Assembly: GCA_017510305.1 (NCBI GenBank)
Contig: JAFWNO010000031.1
Span: 1 to 15,457, forward strand
Direction: 5' to 3'
DNA: 15,457 nucleotides
Source: Candidatus Saccharimonadota bacterium
Lineage (GTDB): Bacteria; Patescibacteriota; Saccharimonadia; Saccharimonadales; Saccharimonadaceae
Notes under the pieces: model-generated
What the model was told of the DNA's origin: nothing
Seen by the model: only the letters and a program-made list of their open reading frames with translations
Database searches by the model: none
In this document: piece by piece, positions 7,594-15,394 of the stretch
How positions within the stretch are numbered: the first letter of the stretch is position 1
How the letters are laid out: the number at the start of each line of letters is the position of its first letter
Program-made: the position numbers and the translations under genes

Positions 7594-9141
7594 TTATTCA
7601 TCTTTTTCGTCTTTTTCGCGCTTCTTGATGATGAAGAAGGCGATACCGCCAGCGGCGACCATAGCGGTAGCTGCGGCTGCGATAGTGATAGCATTGTTTG
7701 TGCCAGAGTCTGAATCGCCAGCAACGGATGCCGTAGTCTTGGCGTCAGCATTATTAACGCCTAACGGAGTGTTATATGTACTGTCCGTATTGTTGTTGGT
7801 GGTGTCGTCGGTGGTTGTGTCGCTAGAGGACGAACTGCTACTTTGCATAGTGGCAGATCTTAGACTTCTATTGCCTGAAGTGGAGTTATTAGTATTGAGA
7901 GTGGGGGACGCTGAGTTATTGGACGATGTATTGTTGTTTGATGGGGTATTGTCAGCAATTTGCTGCTCGTTTTGAGAATCTGAGTTTTTATAGGTGAAGA
8001 TATTACTCTCGTATAGGGTAGTCGACAAATTAGATAGGGCAAGTTCAACGCCGTATGATTGGTCAAGGGTCAGAGCGGGTACTGTGCAAGTCACATATAG
8101 GTAATTATTTGTGTCTAGATTGACGGTAGGATTAGTACATGTGCCGCTTTCGGTCTTTGTAACTTCACCAGTTTCACTGTCAGTAGACTCTTGGTAGAAT
8201 TTAACGGTAGCAGATTCGCCGGTAATATTTGTTGTATTGATTGAAGTATAAACAGTAAGAGTAGCACCGGCTATGGCGTTTTTAGGGGAGATCCTGATTT
8301 GGGTGGGCTGCTCGGCTAGGGCAGTATAGAGCATTACATTGCCATATTCGCCGCCTACTATGTTTTTCTCGGCATAGACGCCGTAGTAGATAGTTGTAGT
8401 AGAAGTAGGCTCGTTGTCTTGGCGGACGAGGATTTCATTGCCAGAGTTAGGGACTTTGGCCCATTTGCTAGTTTTGGTAGGGTTAGAATAGTCAGGGTCG
8501 AAATTGTTTTCAGGGATACCTTCACTATTAGAGGCGAGTGCAAGACCCCAAGTGTTTTGACCTAGTGTAGCAGCAGTAGTAAGAGAGTTGCCGCCACCTG
8601 GAGCAAAGTAAGTATTAGCGGCAAGGGAGCTATCTTTGACTACGGTGCTTGTGCTAACGAGATTGTTTGCTACGAGAGAGGTGTCTATGTCACCGACGGT
8701 ATATGTGCCCGTAGTACTGAGGAGGAGCTGATGTGTGAGCGGACTGTTAGACTCGACATAAACTGAATCGGAAGCGAAGGCAAGATTACCAAGAGCTGTA
8801 CGCCCCTCTTCGCTACCAAATGCCATAGAGATAGGTGTGCTAGAAGCGCCATGATCAGAACGGACAGTAATGTAATAGAAGAGTGGATTGTTATTAACGG
8901 TAACGCTAAGATTTTGATTTTGCTTGCGGCAAATAGAGCCAGATTCGGTAGTATTGGTAGACTCATCGCAATCTTCTGGGGTATCGGTAGCGGAAGTGTT
9001 TTGGAATGGAGTAGTAAGGCTGATAGTAGCATAAACCACCAAAAATGCAAATATACCAAGTGCTGAATTCTTTAGTACTAACGATATTTTGTCTTCTTTA
9101 TGGGGGGATTTGTCGAAACGACTTTTATTTTTGCCTAGCAT
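7594..9141 (-). CDS. Surface protein with N- and C-terminal membrane helices
   Basis: 515 residues. A basic N-terminus (1-24) is followed by a hydrophobic helix at about 25-45. The extracellular region contains the same module as the FISUMP proteins: NTWGLAL (196-202), YYGV (252-255), GGEYGNVMLYTALAEQP (263-279) and an Ig-like stretch to about 387 with paired Cys335/Cys352. It has no FISUMP domain. Residues about 388-482 are a Ser/Thr/Asn linker, including seven consecutive Ser, suited to spanning the wall. A second helix at 484-505 ends in the basic KKREKDEKDE tail. This could be a sortase-type or plain anchor; no LPxTG is present. Start supported by AAAGGAG (9151-9157), 9 nt from the ATG. 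Probably a wall-spanning adhesin-like protein, but the function is not demonstrated. Confidence 0.88.
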   Translation of the reverse strand: MLGKNKSRFDKSPHKEDKISLVLKNSALGIFAFLVVYATISLTTPFQNTSATDTPEDCDESTNTTESGSICRKQNQNLSVTVNNNPLFYYITVRSDHGASSTPISMAFGSEEGRTALGNLAFASDSVYVESNSPLTHQLLLSTTGTYTVGDIDTSLVANNLVSTSTVVKDSSLAANTYFAPGGGNSLTTAATLGQNTWGLALASNSEGIPENNFDPDYSNPTKTSKWAKVPNSGNEILVRQDNEPTSTTTIYYGVYAEKNIVGGEYGNVMLYTALAEQPTQIRISPKNAIAGATLTVYTSINTTNITGESATVKFYQESTDSETGEVTKTESGTCTNPTVNLDTNNYLYVTCTVPALTLDQSYGVELALSNLSTTLYESNIFTYKNSDSQNEQQIADNTPSNNNTSSNNSASPTLNTNNSTSGNRSLRSATMQSSSSSSSDTTTDDTTNNNTDSTYNTPLGVNNADAKTTASVAGDSDSGTNNAITIAAAATAMVAAGGIAFFIIKKREKDEKDE

Positions 9142-9282: not shown

Positions 9283-9843
9283 TTATTCTGCCGTTGTTGA
9301 TTTTTTAACTTTTAATGCGAAGAAGATGCCGGCGGCGACTACGATGACTGCAGCGGTGGCAACGATGGCAGGAATGATATTTTCGCTAGAGTAATCGTTG
9401 GACTTGGTGACACCACTACCAGTGTTGGCGGTAGAGGCGGAATTATTGCTATCGGCATCATCGGTATTATCTCCGGTATCGTCGTCTGCTAAGGTAATAG
9501 TGACAGTATCAGTGGCGAACGTATCGGTGCTACCGTTATAATCGGCGGCCTTGACGATATAAGTGCCAGAGTTGGTCATAGTAAAAGTATCTTGATAAGT
9601 GTTGTCGCTAGCTACGGACGTAGTGTGCATGGCAAGGACAGTAGTGCCGTCTTCAGCATAAACGGCGATAGCTACGGCGACGACGCCGGCTCCTGCTTCC
9701 CCAGATACGCTGATAACACCAGTAGTATCATTTCCATCTGCAACGATGGTATTGATAGATCCAGCGCTAGCAAGATTTGCTGGAGCTAATGCCATAAAAG
9801 TTGCGATGGCTGCTGTAGCGATGGTTTTTAGAATAGTTTTCAT
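9283..9843 (-). CDS. Small secreted Ig-like protein with C-terminal sorting-type anchor
   Basis: 186 residues. The signal peptide is 1-27 (basic start, Ala-rich core, cleavage after NLASA). Residues about 29-118 look like one beta-sandwich of Ig-like or bacterial adhesin type, alternating hydrophobics and ending in DTVTITLAD; no family is recognised with certainty. An Asp/Asn/Ser/Thr linker follows at 119-137. TANTG (138-142) then precedes a hydrophobic helix at 156-177 and the basic KVKK. That order resembles a cell-wall sorting signal with an LAxTG-like motif whose first residue is Thr. Start: ATG overlaps the stop of the 532-residue gene (TAATG, 9841-9845), with GGAGG at 9851-9855. The coupling implies a stoichiometric partnership, perhaps an anchored subunit for the secreted protein upstream. 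Confidence 0.85.
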   Translation of the reverse strand: MKTILKTIATAAIATFMALAPANLASAGSINTIVADGNDTTGVISVSGEAGAGVVAVAIAVYAEDGTTVLAMHTTSVASDNTYQDTFTMTNSGTYIVKAADYNGSTDTFATDTVTITLADDDTGDNTDDADSNNSASTANTGSGVTKSNDYSSENIIPAIVATAAVIVVAAGIFFALKVKKSTTAE

Positions 9844-11441
9844 TATCGGACCTCCACATTATAATTATTTAGATAATTAACTTCGCGGGTTTCGGCATCG
9901 TAGTAAGAGCCGGCACCAGAACCGCTAAAGGTACCACCGTAGGAATTGCCAGAGAGTGCGCCTTTTTTGATGATGGTAAAGTAGGCTCCAGCTATCTTGG
10001 ATTTATCTACGGAGATCTTAAAGGATGATGCGCGGAGGTTTTGACCGCCACTTTCATTTTGAGTGCTAATGGTGTCTAAGATTTGGAAGTCAGTAGTGCC
10101 ATCATTGTAGATAACATTAGCGACTACTTGAAAATCATCATAATTGTAGGTTGTAGGATAGTATGCGTCAATAATGAGGGATGGATCGGTTTCATCGGGA
10201 CCGAAATTGTCGTGGACTTTAATGGCGGTGCGGGCGACCATGGCGTAATAAGTGCCATTAGCATCAGTAATCTCAAATACGACTCGGTCGTAATAGTTGG
10301 AGGCAAAGGTGAGTGTCCAGATGCCACCGGCATTGTCAATAGTGACGGCACCTGTTGGAGCATTGATTGCGGTTATGCTAGTAACGACATCATTTAGACC
10401 ATTTAAGATGACATTTGGCTCGTTGAGGTAGCTTTCGATGATTGCTGGCTGCTCGGCAGTAGTCTCGGAGATGTCAATTACTGGGTTATAGGTGAAGCCT
10501 GGCTCCCAGAAGCCTGGGAAGTAAGTGTAATCGGCCGGATCGTTAGATACTTCAACGGCGACATATTCTGCACCGTGCAAGACGACTTGGAATTGCATAG
10601 CAACATTGGTAGAGAGTGAATTTTTACCCTTACCGAAGTCGATTGGATTTAGTTTGCCACCATCGATATGCTGAGATTCGTTGCCGTAGAGAATTAATTC
10701 GGTGGTGGTATAGATATCGTTAAGATGTGCGCCGATATAGTCCCAACCGGCGAGGTCTTTTCCCTGCTCATTGACGGAAGCTTCTATGCCAACCCAACCT
10801 TGATTATGTTCATCGCCGAGAGTATAGTGCTTGGAATTGTCGGTATCGTCGGTGATATTAGAATCTAGGAGATTAATAGTCTGACCAATTGGGGTGCCAG
10901 TTTCTGTCCAGATGTCTGTGAAATGGTGATAACAGACGCCGTTACAATCCCAGACAAAGTAGATATTGCCATCAAATGGCTCATCTGGACCGGGCTGTGG
11001 GTCCTGCCCGCTGGCATCTTGGATAAGGACGCTATGATTGGCGCTGCTAGCGTTGAAGGCTGTCTCTGCGCCAACTTGACTGCCACCAGCAAAGAGGGCG
11101 AAAGCGCCACTATTATAATTGATGTAGCCAGTATCGCCAGAATCTACGGTGATATAGCATTCGGTAGCACCAGCGTTACAGGAGGTAGTGCCGATGCGAG
11201 TGTTATTATCTTCTGGATTTGTGCGAAGTTCGACATATTGACTGTCTCCGCCATCTACGCTGACTAAAAGATGAGTACCATCAGAACTCATTGCGTAGGA
11301 ATGCTCCTGTGGCTGCGAATTGACGCTAAATGTAAGGGTGTATTCCCCAGTTGCGTTAGTGTTTATTGCTGGGATGCTAGCGCCAACGCATAATCCAACA
11401 ATAATTAATCCCCCGAGTAGTATATTCTTTATTTTGCCCAT
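9843..11441 (-). CDS. Large secreted protein of unknown family
   Basis: 532 residues. The N-terminus MGKIKNILLGGLIIVGLCVG is a classical signal peptide with a likely cleavage after Ala30 (NTNA/TGEY). The rest is acidic, rich in Thr, Asn, Asp, Gly and aromatic residues, with strand-like alternation, and ends without a membrane helix. Two Cys pairs (SCNAGATEC, then WDCNGVCYHH) suggest disulfides. A short Pro/Asp/Gly linker (QDPQPGPDEPFDGN) separates an N-terminal domain of about 120 residues from a large central part. The end (YGGTFSGSGAGSYYDAET) is Gly/Ser/Tyr-rich. I recognise no enzyme motif or known domain. It has a strong promoter and is translationally coupled to the anchored 186-residue protein, so a cell-surface complex is the best guess. 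Start supported by AAAGGT at 11451-11456. Confidence 0.85.
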   Translation of the reverse strand: MGKIKNILLGGLIIVGLCVGASIPAINTNATGEYTLTFSVNSQPQEHSYAMSSDGTHLLVSVDGGDSQYVELRTNPEDNNTRIGTTSCNAGATECYITVDSGDTGYINYNSGAFALFAGGSQVGAETAFNASSANHSVLIQDASGQDPQPGPDEPFDGNIYFVWDCNGVCYHHFTDIWTETGTPIGQTINLLDSNITDDTDNSKHYTLGDEHNQGWVGIEASVNEQGKDLAGWDYIGAHLNDIYTTTELILYGNESQHIDGGKLNPIDFGKGKNSLSTNVAMQFQVVLHGAEYVAVEVSNDPADYTYFPGFWEPGFTYNPVIDISETTAEQPAIIESYLNEPNVILNGLNDVVTSITAINAPTGAVTIDNAGGIWTLTFASNYYDRVVFEITDANGTYYAMVARTAIKVHDNFGPDETDPSLIIDAYYPTTYNYDDFQVVANVIYNDGTTDFQILDTISTQNESGGQNLRASSFKISVDKSKIAGAYFTIIKKGALSGNSYGGTFSGSGAGSYYDAETREVNYLNNYNVEVR

Positions 11442-12035: not shown

Positions 12036-14279
12036 TTAGCTACCGAAGACGCAGCGGACAGATGTAGCGCCAACAGTAGTTGATGCGCCTGGCTGTACGC
12101 CAAAATAATAGAACCCGCCGTAATATCCAAAACTAAATATTGTACGAGCAACCGAATAATCAATAAGATTATTTGCAGAAATTGCAACATTGTATGAGTT
12201 TCCATAAGAATAATAACCTGCTTTTGGGTAATATAACGGAGATTGTTCTATTCTTTGGATTAGAATAATAGATTCATCACCTGTTATATATTGTGTTGAA
12301 AGATCATAATATGGGAGTAATGTGTCTAAATCAGCATTGGAAACCAAACGCCAATTTTTAGGGCAAATAGACTCGTTAGATAATTGATTCATGTCTACAG
12401 CGTTAGCATGAGCGGCAATATAGTTATATTGGTTCCCATATTTTGTTCCTTCACCATCTATATTATTAGCATGGGATGCATAAATATTGGCTGAGTTAGT
12501 TGTATATGTACCGTCTGCCATATTTGCCGACAAGTTATGACTTGTTGTTACATTACTATCTTGTGGAGTGAGGGTGCGGACGGTGCCGAGACCATTATTA
12601 CCATCGAGAGCGAGGTTAGAAGTCATCCAACAATTACCATCGGCGAGCTTACTTACCTTATAAAATTTACCATCGCGGGAATCTATCATTGTTTTTCTAT
12701 TATCGGCAGCAGTGGTACTTTCGGCAAGATTGCTACACATTGTAGCAGTAAAGTTTTGCATAATTTCATCTGACTGGCCGGTAAAGATACATCTAACGGA
12801 TTCACCTGTTGCTTTAGATACTTCTGAGTAGGGTATAAAATAATTATAATATGAATCTGGCTTAATAGACATCCAAAATCTGCCATACGAACTAGCATTA
12901 ACAGTGTAGTTTGCAATTTCGCCACCATTTAGCCCTATACTGATAGAAATTGAGTTTTCTTCATGAGTATAATTGCTGTTCATCGGGATATAAAATGGTG
13001 CAGTTTGTACAGCAGCAATAGCACTGGCATTTACAGTAACACCTGTTGGTAAGCCATATTTGCCAAATAAATTCGGCCAGCTAAAATCATTTCCATACTG
13101 TGGAAGAGACCATCCCTTTGGACAAATACTGGTAGTGGCACTACCTTCAAAGCTAGCCGTGCCTTGTCCGGCAGTTGCTGCCATAAAATTATAAAGATTA
13201 CCATAAGGCATCTTAGTGCCATCTGTGGCTGTCTGGGTTGTAGTGGCATAACTATCATCAACAATGCCATTAGTAGAGCCAGAGAAAATCTGCATAGCAT
13301 CGGAGGATGCTACTGTACCATCTATAATGTTTGGCGCAAGAGTCACATTTGTAGTAACATTGGAATCATTTGGAGTAAGGGTGCGAACATTGCCGGCTTT
13401 ATCGGTGCCGTCTAGAGCAAGGTTATCCGTCATCCAGCAGTGACCATCAGCCATCTTTGTTACACGGTAATATTTATCGTCACGGGAGTCGGAAAGATTG
13501 ATGCTCGTATTAGTCCCCATCGCATCACACTGGGCGGAGGTGAAATCTTGCATGGTGGGAAAGACGTTGACGCCTTCGGAAATAGCCGTATAAGTCACCT
13601 CCGTACTATAACTCCCCGTTGGTAAAGTGGTAGAAGCATTGATGCCGTAGAAAATATCTAGATCGGTGCCGTCGGGGCTGTTATAGTCGGAAGTTTCGGC
13701 GATTTTGGCGTTAGAGGAATTTGCGTATTTTGGCACTTCGGCCCAAGTAGAATCGGCAGAAGGATTGCCAGTGCTATAATAATCGATATTAGCAAAGTTG
13801 GCAGAGAAAGGATCGCCGGTGCTACTATCTAGAGCAAAGCCCCAAGTGTTTTGGGTGAGTTTGGCAGGGCTAGAAATGGTGCCAGAGCCTGGCTGGAAAT
13901 AACCCTCTGAAGCGGAGGAGGAAGAGCCGCCTTGATAAATATTATTATCATTAACAGAGGTAGAAACATAGAGTTTGTAACCATTAGGAGAATTAGTAAC
14001 AACATTAATAGTATCCTTAGCGATAGCCATTTGGCCGGTGGGCGAGGCCGTAACATCTAATCCTAGAGAATCGGCGGAGGTGATTTGGATAAAGAAATCT
14101 GAAGTATTATTATTGATGACTACCGTGCTAGCATCGGAAGATTTGACGGGCGTGAGAGTGCTGGCAACAACGTAGGCGCAGAGGAACGAAAAAAGCCCAA
14201 GCGCGAATAGTTTATAATACTTGGGATTGAAAATGAAACTCTGATGTAATGTTAGACTTTTTTGTTTATTATTGCTCAT
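12036..14279 (-). CDS. Membrane-anchored surface protein with two FISUMP domains
   Basis: 747 residues. A basic N-terminus (KYYK at 20-23) precedes one hydrophobic helix at about 24-42 with no clear cleavage site, so it is anchored with the rest outside. Residues 50-240 are the shared surface module: NTWGFAL (144-150), FYGI (210-213), TGSYSTEVTYTAISEG (221-236). FISUMP domain 1 is about 242-498 (DSRD 264-267, DGHCWM 278-283, CPKGW 386-390, SVRCIF 494-499). FISUMP domain 2 is about 507-747 (DSRD 533-536, DGNCWM 547-552, CPKNW 639-643, SVRCVFGS at the end). The repeats have diverged, so the duplication is not recent. Start fixed by the full AAGGAGGT at 14286-14293. It has a long leader. Function unknown; surface display is the safe inference. 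Confidence 0.92.
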   Translation of the reverse strand: MSNNKQKSLTLHQSFIFNPKYYKLFALGLFSFLCAYVVASTLTPVKSSDASTVVINNNTSDFFIQITSADSLGLDVTASPTGQMAIAKDTINVVTNSPNGYKLYVSTSVNDNNIYQGGSSSSASEGYFQPGSGTISSPAKLTQNTWGFALDSSTGDPFSANFANIDYYSTGNPSADSTWAEVPKYANSSNAKIAETSDYNSPDGTDLDIFYGINASTTLPTGSYSTEVTYTAISEGVNVFPTMQDFTSAQCDAMGTNTSINLSDSRDDKYYRVTKMADGHCWMTDNLALDGTDKAGNVRTLTPNDSNVTTNVTLAPNIIDGTVASSDAMQIFSGSTNGIVDDSYATTTQTATDGTKMPYGNLYNFMAATAGQGTASFEGSATTSICPKGWSLPQYGNDFSWPNLFGKYGLPTGVTVNASAIAAVQTAPFYIPMNSNYTHEENSISISIGLNGGEIANYTVNASSYGRFWMSIKPDSYYNYFIPYSEVSKATGESVRCIFTGQSDEIMQNFTATMCSNLAESTTAADNRKTMIDSRDGKFYKVSKLADGNCWMTSNLALDGNNGLGTVRTLTPQDSNVTTSHNLSANMADGTYTTNSANIYASHANNIDGEGTKYGNQYNYIAAHANAVDMNQLSNESICPKNWRLVSNADLDTLLPYYDLSTQYITGDESIILIQRIEQSPLYYPKAGYYSYGNSYNVAISANNLIDYSVARTIFSFGYYGGFYYFGVQPGASTTVGATSVRCVFGS

Positions 14280-14314
14280 GGCAAGACCTCCTTATTTTAC
14301 CTTGTGCCTCGCTA

Positions 14315-14358
14315 GCACCATTTTAGTTTGGAGGTATTTGAGCCAACTAAAATGGTGC
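14315..14358. repeat. Inverted repeat A-B
   Basis: GCACCATTTTAGTT (14315-14328) and its exact complement AACTAAAATGGTGC (14345-14358). After one unpaired T (14329) the stem continues with GG (14330-14331) and CC (14343-14344). The loop is 11 nt. No T-run follows on either strand, so it is not a classical terminator. Confidence 0.85.
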
Positions 14359-14440
14359 CACGAAACTTTAGGAAAAAGACCCAGCAATAAGCATCTAATC
14401 TGGTTAGGCATTATCGTAAGGTGTTCGTGGCACCATTTTA
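14348..14440. repeat. Inverted repeat B-C
   Basis: TAAAATGGTGCCACGAA (14348-14364) is the perfect complement of TTCGTGGCACCATTTTA (14424-14440), 17 bp with a 59-nt gap. It shares arm B with the other repeat, so the two pairings exclude each other in RNA. A, B and C all contain the GCACCATTTTA core, in alternating orientation. Confidence 0.85.
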
Positions 14441-14545
14441 ACGTCTAAACAGATTTTGCTTCCCGACTTTGGGTTATAAATATAAATTTTCCAAATACTA
14501 TAAAAGCGATGCCTTTATCTATTACTGAATCTTTTTCCTAACTCT

Positions 14546-14573
14546 ATTATAGCAAGTGGCACAAAAAATGCAA
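14546..14573 (-). promoter_or_regulatory. Promoter of the double-FISUMP gene
   Basis: Minus strand: TTGCAT (14568-14573), 16-nt spacer, TATAAT (14546-14551) with TGC before it (extended -10). It lies just after the stop of the LiaF-like gene (14594). Expected start 14539-14542. Confidence 0.75.
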
Positions 14574-14593: not shown

Positions 14594-15280
14594 TTATTTA
14601 ATTTCGATGCCGCCGAAGATGGTGGTGGCGTCTAGATAGATAGTTGGCTGGTTTTCGGACTTTTTGGTGTTTTTGCGTTTATCCTCTACGCCGCCAAAAA
14701 TAGCATTTGATTCAAATTCAAGATTGATATCTTCTGGGGCTTTGATGGTGATGCCGCCGAAGATGGCACTGGCATTAACGACAACATCCTTTTTTATAAT
14801 TGCTTTGCTTAAGTCTATATCAATGCCGCCGAAGGCTGCGACGAATTTTGCACCTTTGAATTCTTTTTCATCATAATTATATTTCTCGCCAGAAAAGACT
14901 GAAGCATTAGTAACTTTATTATCGCTCTTTTCGTTTAGTTCTTTAATTTTAGCATTAGTGTTGTGGTGAAGGATGGTTTTAATGATAATAGAGCAGCCGA
15001 TGATTATAATGATGGCTGGAATGATAAGCTGCCAGATGATGCCAAAATCCACTACGCTAAGGCAGGCGAGAAGCAAAATAACGCCGATTGTGAAGATGAT
15101 GATGCTGGCGGTTTTGTCTTTGTCGGTAACGAAGCTGATGGCGGATGGAACGAGAATAAAAACTGTCCACCAGCCGGGAAAGAAAATGTTTAAATTAAAG
15201 ATGCCGAGAGCGTTGCCGCCGATAATGATACCGAGGACAATGAGGACGATTCCCCACATGATTTGTTTTGCTTGTTTCAT
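14594..15280 (-). CDS. LiaF-like membrane protein (DUF5668 plus IFGG beta repeats)
   Basis: 228 residues. Four hydrophobic segments at about 7-24, 36-52, 57-75 and 80-101 match the N-terminal LiaI/LiaF-type membrane region (GIVLIVLGIIIGGNALGIFN, then FFPGWWTVFILVPS). Residues 105-125 are a charged linker. Residues 126-228 have repeated beta turns with F(S/G)G at 129-131, 150-152, 174-176, 195-197 and 222-224, as in the cell-wall-active antibiotics response family. In Firmicutes LiaF negatively regulates the LiaRS envelope-stress two-component system. No liaR or liaS is in the window, so a sensor role is only analogy. The Shine-Dalgarno is weak (AAAAAGG at 15293-15299, 12 nt away). The gene begins 37 nt after a tRNA on the same strand with no terminator or promoter between, so co-transcription is likely. 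No terminator follows it. Confidence 0.88.
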   Translation of the reverse strand: MKQAKQIMWGIVLIVLGIIIGGNALGIFNLNIFFPGWWTVFILVPSAISFVTDKDKTASIIIFTIGVILLLACLSVVDFGIIWQLIIPAIIIIIGCSIIIKTILHHNTNAKIKELNEKSDNKVTNASVFSGEKYNYDEKEFKGAKFVAAFGGIDIDLSKAIIKKDVVVNASAIFGGITIKAPEDINLEFESNAIFGGVEDKRKNTKKSENQPTIYLDATTIFGGIEIK

Positions 15281-15317: not shown

Positions 15318-15394
15318 TGGTGGATCCTAGAGGATTCGAACCTCTGACCTTACGAATGTGAATCGTACGCTCTAGCCAACTGAGCTAAGGATCC
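15318..15394 (-). tRNA. tRNA-Val (anticodon CAC), CCA encoded
   Basis: 77 nt on the minus strand with a full cloverleaf: acceptor GGATCCT/AGGATCC, D-stem GCTC/GAGC with a 9-nt loop, anticodon stem TACGA/TCGTA with loop TTCACAT, variable AGGTC, T-stem AGAGG/CCTCT with loop TTCGAAT, discriminator A and a genomic CCA. Anticodon CAC reads GUG, valine; A73 agrees with valine identity. Confidence 0.95.

Follow-up and report, generated by a model that had tools for sequence, protein, structure and literature searches.

Introduction

In cobalamin riboswitches, a loop makes contact with the output region, and in the preQ1-II and SAM-II riboswitches a pseudoknot hides the Shine-Dalgarno (SD) sequence. 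T-box leaders are long and carry alternative helices. To our knowledge, little is known about gene regulation in the host-dependent Saccharibacteria, for which hardly any genetics exists.

The leader described here precedes a FISUMP gene on a 15,457-nt stretch of a Candidatus Saccharimonadota genome (contig JAFWNO010000031.1), the whole of which is called the window. An original prediction, made from the sequence, held that one arm of this leader (B) could pair either with an upstream arm (C) or with a downstream arm (A), and that the choice between the two would switch translation. In the literature covered on regulatory RNA in Saccharibacteria and Patescibacteria and on FISUMP, which included few subscription titles and part of PMC11665869, no such leader was found.

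Results

Structure of the leader in the window

The elements of the leader, from the promoter to the gene, are as follows.

14546..14573, minus strand: promoter, with an extended -10 TGCTATAAT (TATAAT at 14551-14546, preceded by TG) and a weak -35, TTGCAT, at 14573-14568 (3/6 match to TTGACA)
14520..14541, minus strand: 5' strand of P1, the closing helix at the transcript start (fold, inverted-repeat search, alignment)
14508..14513, minus strand: 5' strand of the inner extension of P1 (fold and alignment, helix 3)
14458..14507, minus strand: P2 hairpin, GCUUUU...GGAAGC, very variable in length among relatives (fold and alignment)
14397..14455, minus strand: P3 hairpin, with arm C within its apical part (fold and alignment)
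14424..14440, minus strand: arm C, pseudoknot partner of B or partly closed locally (GGUG 14434-14431 with CACC 14423-14420)
14390..14395, minus strand: 3' strand of the inner extension of P1 (fold and alignment)
14368..14389, minus strand: 3' strand of P1 (fold and inverted-repeat search)
14348..14364, minus strand: arm B, directly 3' of P1, pairing with C or A
14349..14352, minus strand: UUUU after the B core, at the site of U5 in most relatives (sequence)
14330..14335, minus strand: element D, the anti-SD ACCUCC, apical within the A:B hairpin and present in 7/7 close copies
14306..14331, minus strand: 3' strand of the A:B hairpin, comprising arm A (14315-14328) and an extension (fold and inverted-repeat search)
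14286..14291, minus strand: SD GGAGGU, identical in 7/7 close copies
12036..14279, minus strand: regulated gene, ATG at 14279, encoding 747 aa with two FISUMP stretches and an N-terminal hydrophobic segment

The original prediction had placed ACCTCC at 14335-14330, GGAGGT at 14291-14286 and the promoter upstream of them, and all were present there. Inverted-repeat searches returned both of its pairings, B/C (14348-14364 with 14424-14440, 17 nt, 100%) and A/B (14315-14328 with 14345-14358, 14 nt, 100%, plus an extension), and the 747-aa product does hold the two FISUMP stretches for which the gene had been called double-FISUMP. A consensus promoter scan of the window did not list the leader promoter. 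When the minus-strand leader was folded (at 37 C, as were all RNAs here), a strong structure of -92 kcal/mol was obtained, far below shuffled sequences (-58.65, sd 4.39; z -7.6; 0/200 shuffles as low). In the best fold, P1 encloses P2 and P3, arm C is apical in P3, and the A:B hairpin follows, then the SD. P1 also appears as an inverted repeat (14368-14389 with 14520-14541, 22 nt, 86%), which the original prediction had missed. Because C is apical in P3 and B lies directly 3' of P1, the C:B helix would be a pseudoknot.

Around the leader, the upstream gene (14594-15280, minus strand) encodes a LiaF-like membrane protein (PF22570, PF09922) and is itself preceded by a tRNA (15321-15394, minus strand). 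Two large open reading frames on the minus strand, 7594-9141 and 9843-11441, have no Pfam match; the former resembles the N-terminal part of FISUMP proteins (E 2.2e-12). A terminator-like CCCAAG...CTTGGG followed by CTTTTTTC (14187-14228, minus strand) is situated early in the coding sequence of the FISUMP gene; it also occurs in several close paralogs of the same genome and is absent from C39 and C13.

A search of the window and 20 related loci against Rfam 15 returned tRNAs alone at the gathering score, in agreement with the prediction that no known riboswitch class would be recognised, and a sub-threshold scan over the leader gave only weak matches to unrelated families. Like alternative-helix riboswitches, the leader combines a scaffold, a pseudoknot from an apical loop to the output region, mutually exclusive helices and a putative SD or terminator output. 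Unlike them, it has no Rfam class, hardly any unpaired base of P1-P3 is conserved apart from arm C, the helix exchanged is a long duplex, and up to about 30 copies per genome precede surface-protein genes. The family may resemble intrinsic-terminator attenuators, in that most relatives have a U-tract after a GC-rich candidate stem ahead of the gene, and a structure that competes with it. Here, however, the 5' strand of the stem comes from the loop of a hairpin further upstream, the competing arm A follows the U-tract, and the window leader itself has UUUU only. As in T-box leaders, the leader is long and has alternative helices, and the B arm of the window contains GUGGCACC, which resembles part of the T-box core; however, the B core is not conserved as a T-box in relatives, and FISUMP and other exported-protein genes lie downstream. 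Given also the absence of an Rfam T-box match, the T-box reading was dropped, as was a cobalamin-like reading for want of an Rfam match. We conclude that the leader represents a new, probably cis-regulatory RNA family that would work like known alternative-structure switches, and we claim no riboswitch class for it.

Leader copies in the window's own genome

DNA BLAST revealed six further copies of the leader, 74-86% identical to it, in the window's assembly. The 59 other genomes searched, of which 35 belong to the same genus, gave no match. As matches were thus confined to 1/60 genomes, a covariance model was needed. Inspection of the starts of FISUMP-like genes yielded two more copies, C18 and C31, divergent in sequence and built on the same plan. 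The window's genome (G000) therefore holds nine leaders, each directly upstream of a FISUMP-type gene; the C25 and C18 genes run off the end of their contigs and were assigned to the family by N-terminal similarity. The remaining FISUMP-like genes of the assembly include three with apparently short leaders that lack the element (C20, C7 and C29), two for which no start was obtained (C42 and C24), one with 19 nt ahead of its start (C15) and one that starts at a contig end (C10).

B:C pairing was retained in 9/9 copies, with compensatory changes. These extra copies and the pairing kept in all nine indicate that the leader is not a chance structure. RNAalifold on seven copies gave 75 pairs, 25 of them with two-sided changes. 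A first covariance model, R1, built from these seven copies, recovered C18, which was outside the training set, with E 1.8e-9, and gave 38.5 bits for C31 in a search of its locus.

Distribution within and outside the genus

In the genus, R1 matched at least 7/174 genomes. A second model, R2, built from 17 leaders, matched at least 44/174 at E<=0.01 (best E<=1e-5 in at least 40) and at least 26/110 good-quality genomes; the strict filters of all R1 and R2 surveys, from genus to phylum, make the leader counts lower bounds. Deeper scoring at E<=0.001 gave 31 matches in G080, 33 in G100, 32 in G175, 26 in G180, 10 in G104 and 11 in G125. With opposite-strand repeats set aside, these correspond to 30, 32, 32, 25, 10 and 8 distinct places, respectively, some of which are cut by contig ends. 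Even at this depth there were zero leader matches in the FISUMP-rich genomes G033, G003 and G019, which have 36, 39 and 7 FISUMP matches. Across 20 genomes of 0.5-0.9 Mb, FISUMP expansions ranged from 6 to 56 matches per genome.

Outside the genus, and under the same strict filters, R1 found no match: among 199 genomes of the family and 392 of the order it hit members of the genus alone. R2 matched one genome of another genus among 295 of the family, gave one marginal match in another family among 294 genomes, and matched G000 and G072 alone among 286 genomes of the phylum. The match in the other genus (G277, E 4.5e-7) was discarded, the fetched sequence being a different SD hairpin; that locus (L229, G277:C4:26576-26710, minus strand) carries an unrelated ATACCTCC...GGAGGTA hairpin before a small membrane protein gene. 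The match in the other family (G511, E 2.5e-4) was also rejected, being absent among E<=0.001 matches when its locus, L140, was rescanned. Under these filters the element thus appears nowhere convincing outside the genus. Exact 20-nt leader patterns had no match in viral_contigs; of two sought in genome_contigs, one matched three contigs of RGIG5864, a Candidatus Saccharibacteria genome from sheep jejunum, and the other none.

For comparative analysis, 94 and 42 aligned matches were combined. One leader present twice (L089) was counted once, and six more were removed, namely three opposite-strand repeats and the weak or short L141, L142 and L227. The resulting 129 leaders are the fetched R2 matches of the genus at about E 1e-5 or better, plus G027 and C31, and exclude the extras from deeper scoring. 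A start codon was in range in 119/129, which formed 69 clusters; the 10 others (L161, L189, L214, L117 and L202 among them) may be contig ends, decayed copies or longer leaders.

The P1-P3 scaffold and the promoter

An alignment of 17 leaders, made to fit the structure, had 95.8% of its 1178 cells paired, and sliding the partners by 1-3 columns reduced this to 39-43%. Two-sided changes occurred at 59/75 pairs (shuffled mean 31.6, 0/500 as high). Over 52 cluster rows, P1-P3 cells contained 238 G-U against 47 A-C, an excess that points to RNA pairing from this strand and not to a DNA palindrome.

Nearly all of the 69 clusters had a -10 box at the start of the element, with 0 mismatches in 42, 1 in 26 and 2 in 1; in a control region 110-90 nt upstream, 2 had 0 mismatches and 19 had 1. 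Folded freely and alone, the 5' domain was closed by P1 in 69/69 clusters. A two-branch junction was obtained in 34/69, with arm C within the second branch in 33/34; in 32 others, P2 often being very small, the domain folded into one long hairpin. P1 arms were shorter where P3 or P2 was longer (rho -0.54 in both cases), an apparent coupling that probably reflects differences in how the folds apportion helices and that was not used. Comparison between leaders supports a structured RNA family consisting of a P1-P3 scaffold and a C:B pseudoknot, an architecture that had gone unseen in the original prediction.

Pairing of arm B with arms C and A

The C:B pairs are absent from the pairs of R1 and R2 and hence provide a separate test, though the sequence profile of the models does reflect both arms. 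When B was matched against the 5' domain, its best partner reached <= -20 kcal/mol in 67/69 clusters, the exceptions being L219 and L224, which have no good C:B, and in 64/69 clusters 0/100 shuffles were as low. In an ungapped 12-position core from 60 clusters, selected for a good anchored C:B (<= -20), 96.5% of 720 cells were paired versus 87.7% when rows were permuted (0/2000). Two-sided changes were seen at 10/12 positions, with 89 G-U against 18 A-C. The spacing from C to B was 39-67 nt in the 33 folds measured.

The A:B helix varies from 8 to 23 bp and, among 68 clusters, beat shuffles (p<=0.05) in 42/49 long and 12/19 short leaders. For C:B, A:B and loop:SD pairing alike, a leader's own arms paired better than those of other leaders (0/2000 permutations each). 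Since the cores are alike, however, no other partner scored higher than the own one in just 14, 7 and 8 of 66 clusters, respectively. The check on related leaders for covariation therefore bore out both rival pairings as well as the P1 scaffold, and the predicted mutual exclusion follows from the fact that two conserved, covarying helices share B.

The leader might instead be static, with P1 and A:B protecting the 5' end or setting translation and C:B serving as a folding aid, so that no switching takes place. A:B is indeed local and, in the window clade, very stable (duplex -28.7 to -35.0 kcal/mol in 13 of 18 leaders compared, these 13 being from G000 and G125) and may always win, the minimum free energy fold showing A:B only. 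We nevertheless consider a static leader unlikely, since one helix would then suffice, whereas two incompatible B helices are maintained by compensatory change, with biased wobble in C. This bias is seen at position 7 of the B core, compared over 68 clusters: the base of C that faces it is U in 49/65 paired cases, 47 of them as U-G, whereas the base of A that faces it is C in 55/61. Over the whole core, G-U makes up 94/719 C:B pairs and 49/619 A:B pairs. The position-7 pattern looks as if C:B formed first and A:B then replaced it.

SD masking and the U-tract

The original prediction was that A-B leaves translation on and B-C turns it off through the anti-SD. In the window clade (the nine leaders of G000, five of G125 and that of G083, 15 in total), 13/15 leaders have ACCUCC or CCUCC between B and the SD, the two that lack it being C31 and G083. 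In these 13, predicted SD accessibility was 0.64-0.87 with B and fell to 0.17-0.36 with B removed, which mimics its capture by C; upon the same removal C31 stayed at 0.51 and G083 went from 0.48 to 0.34. The printed fold of the window shows the anti-SD paired with the SD, a pairing absent from the printed best folds of C18 and G125C8, in which the SD is paired otherwise. Dinucleotide shuffles of the intervening stretch (200 each) reached the observed value in 11 cases for the window, 7 for C13 and 5 for G125C32; in G125C8 (24), G125C17 (44) and C18 (121) the effect was not significant, which counts against a strand-exchange switch. Given the drop in accessibility, the predicted on/off logic is plausible for the window clade according to these folding models, though the shuffle control is modest.

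It did not extend to the genus. In 60/69 clusters, masking of the SD was not stronger in own leaders than in chimeras (0.449 vs 0.448, p=0.38), although accessibility was 0.454 without B vs 0.559 with B (p=0.007). It was higher in the AB state than in the CB state by >0.2 in 21/60 and lower in 9. Genus-wide loop:SD complementarity averaged -10.42 vs -8.54 in cross pairs, a striking single case being L115, in which CCUCACUUAG faces CUAAGUGAGG. With no gain over chimeras, the idea that SD masking holds for the whole genus was given up as unproven. This result also weighs against strand exchange, as do the clear two-branch junction in only 34/69 clusters (5' domain folded alone), the poor C:B of L219 and L224 and the missing anti-SD of C31 and G083.

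What is general after the B core is R-UUUUU-R, with at least 5 T of 7 bases in 58/69 clusters; the window's cluster was mis-anchored in this count, its leader in fact reading AUUUUAG. Such a U5 after the C:B core makes a terminator-type output the main rival. The leader would then be a transcription attenuator in which C:B, as a pseudoknotted intrinsic terminator, stops polymerase before A and the SD are made. The apical pairing of P3 that hides C would be the antiterminator, and the window clade would have moved to translational control while its U-tract decayed to UUUU. Several features fit: the U columns (~95% U) are stricter than the C bases that face them (~76% A), short leaders in the B-A fold leave most of the U-tract unpaired, and GG/CC sits at the stem base adjoining the U-tract. 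On the other hand, 5 or 6 of the 6 U-tract bases pair with C in 58/65 clusters, and this pairing may explain part of its conservation; the C-B spacing of 39-67 nt is not that of an ordinary terminator loop; A:B is conserved even though a stop at this site would come before A; and the window leader has only UUUU, C31 no U-tract at all. We regard an attenuator as possible, and hold the idea tentatively.

Genes downstream of the leader

An N-terminal hydrophobic segment was found in 103/106 downstream proteins of >=60 aa, compared with 12/49 other open reading frames of >=150 aa from the same loci. We searched 58 proteins, the window's and those of 57 cluster representatives (L146 omitted), many of them cut by the fetched stretch: 37/58 matched FISUMP TIGR02145, 24 PF09603, 9 Flg_new and 1 Lcl_C. 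Conversely, in five leader-bearing genomes a leader lay <=3.5 kb upstream of 36/58 FISUMP matches among those listed (8/10, 10/16, 7/13, 7/10 and 4/9 per genome), a tally that omits 8 matches too close to a contig start. From both counts, the device goes mostly but not always with the FISUMP family, some members of which have no leader.

Paralog patterns and the trigger

Within G125, paralogous leaders are 0.85-0.96 identical from B to the start codon and 0.55-0.60 in the 5' domain. Between C13 and G125C1 the values are 0.76 and 0.87, so that this 5' domain is common to two species. In L106, L091 and other leaders of G125 and G000, the B-to-start segment likewise resembles that of same-genome paralogs, which is local homogenisation; the pair C18/G125C17 shows none (0.68 and 0.77). 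Such homogenisation would suit inverted repeats acting at the DNA level, as a recombination, inversion or gene-conversion site that shuffles surface genes. However, on this strand G-U is about five times as common as A-C in both P1-P3 and C:B, as RNA pairing would have it, pairing is retained where the sequence changes, and the C18/G125C17 pair does without homogenisation, and we hold a DNA-level role to be highly improbable.

The B core is uniform in 9/9 leaders examined in G100 and 7/7 in G005, and mixed in G132, G007, G104, G000 and G125. Since each leader's C still matches where the B core is uniform, the copies could share an RNA code through which every one of them responds in trans to attenuated leaders or to the same regulator, although we think this quite unlikely. 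If it were true, the cell would choose its FISUMP surface proteins jointly or one at a time.

A typical metabolite aptamer is unlike P1-P3, in which unpaired conservation is nearly absent. Among unpaired P1-P3 columns other than those of arm C with its A-run, conservation of >=80% was confined to two isolated A columns (52 cluster rows, columns of >=70% occupancy), in a test that tertiary pockets could escape. Since sequence conservation is nearly limited to the three arms and the U-tract/SD region, we think that the trigger is less likely to be a metabolite than a protein, a further RNA or the speed of transcription, with C as the point of action.

Discussion

On balance, we think it somewhat probable that the leader is a cis-acting strand-exchange RNA switch before a family of surface-protein genes. 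P1, P3, C:B and A:B are supported by comparison of leaders, from which we infer an order of events. The transcript would begin at P1, and the scaffold of P1 (~25 bp) and P3 would present C in the apical part of P3. Emerging B would pair with C to form the pseudoknot; emerging A would then capture B in a local hairpin and free C. In the window clade, folding and conservation suggest that the C:B state leaves ACCUCC free to pair with the SD, turning translation off, and that the A:B state would hold ACCUCC in a loop and leave the SD open, turning translation on. In most other members, U5 follows the C:B core, which may then serve as a terminator. If the output does differ from clade to clade, the family would be one sensor with exchangeable platforms.

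A single RNA device occurs at 25-32 places in each of four genomes of 0.8-0.9 Mb, largely before expanded FISUMP genes, and it is plausible that the FISUMP surface proteins are host-contact proteins. The wobble pattern among C, B and A would be a natural case of evolved strand displacement. If the proposed action is true, one mechanism would govern much of a parasite's surface repertoire.
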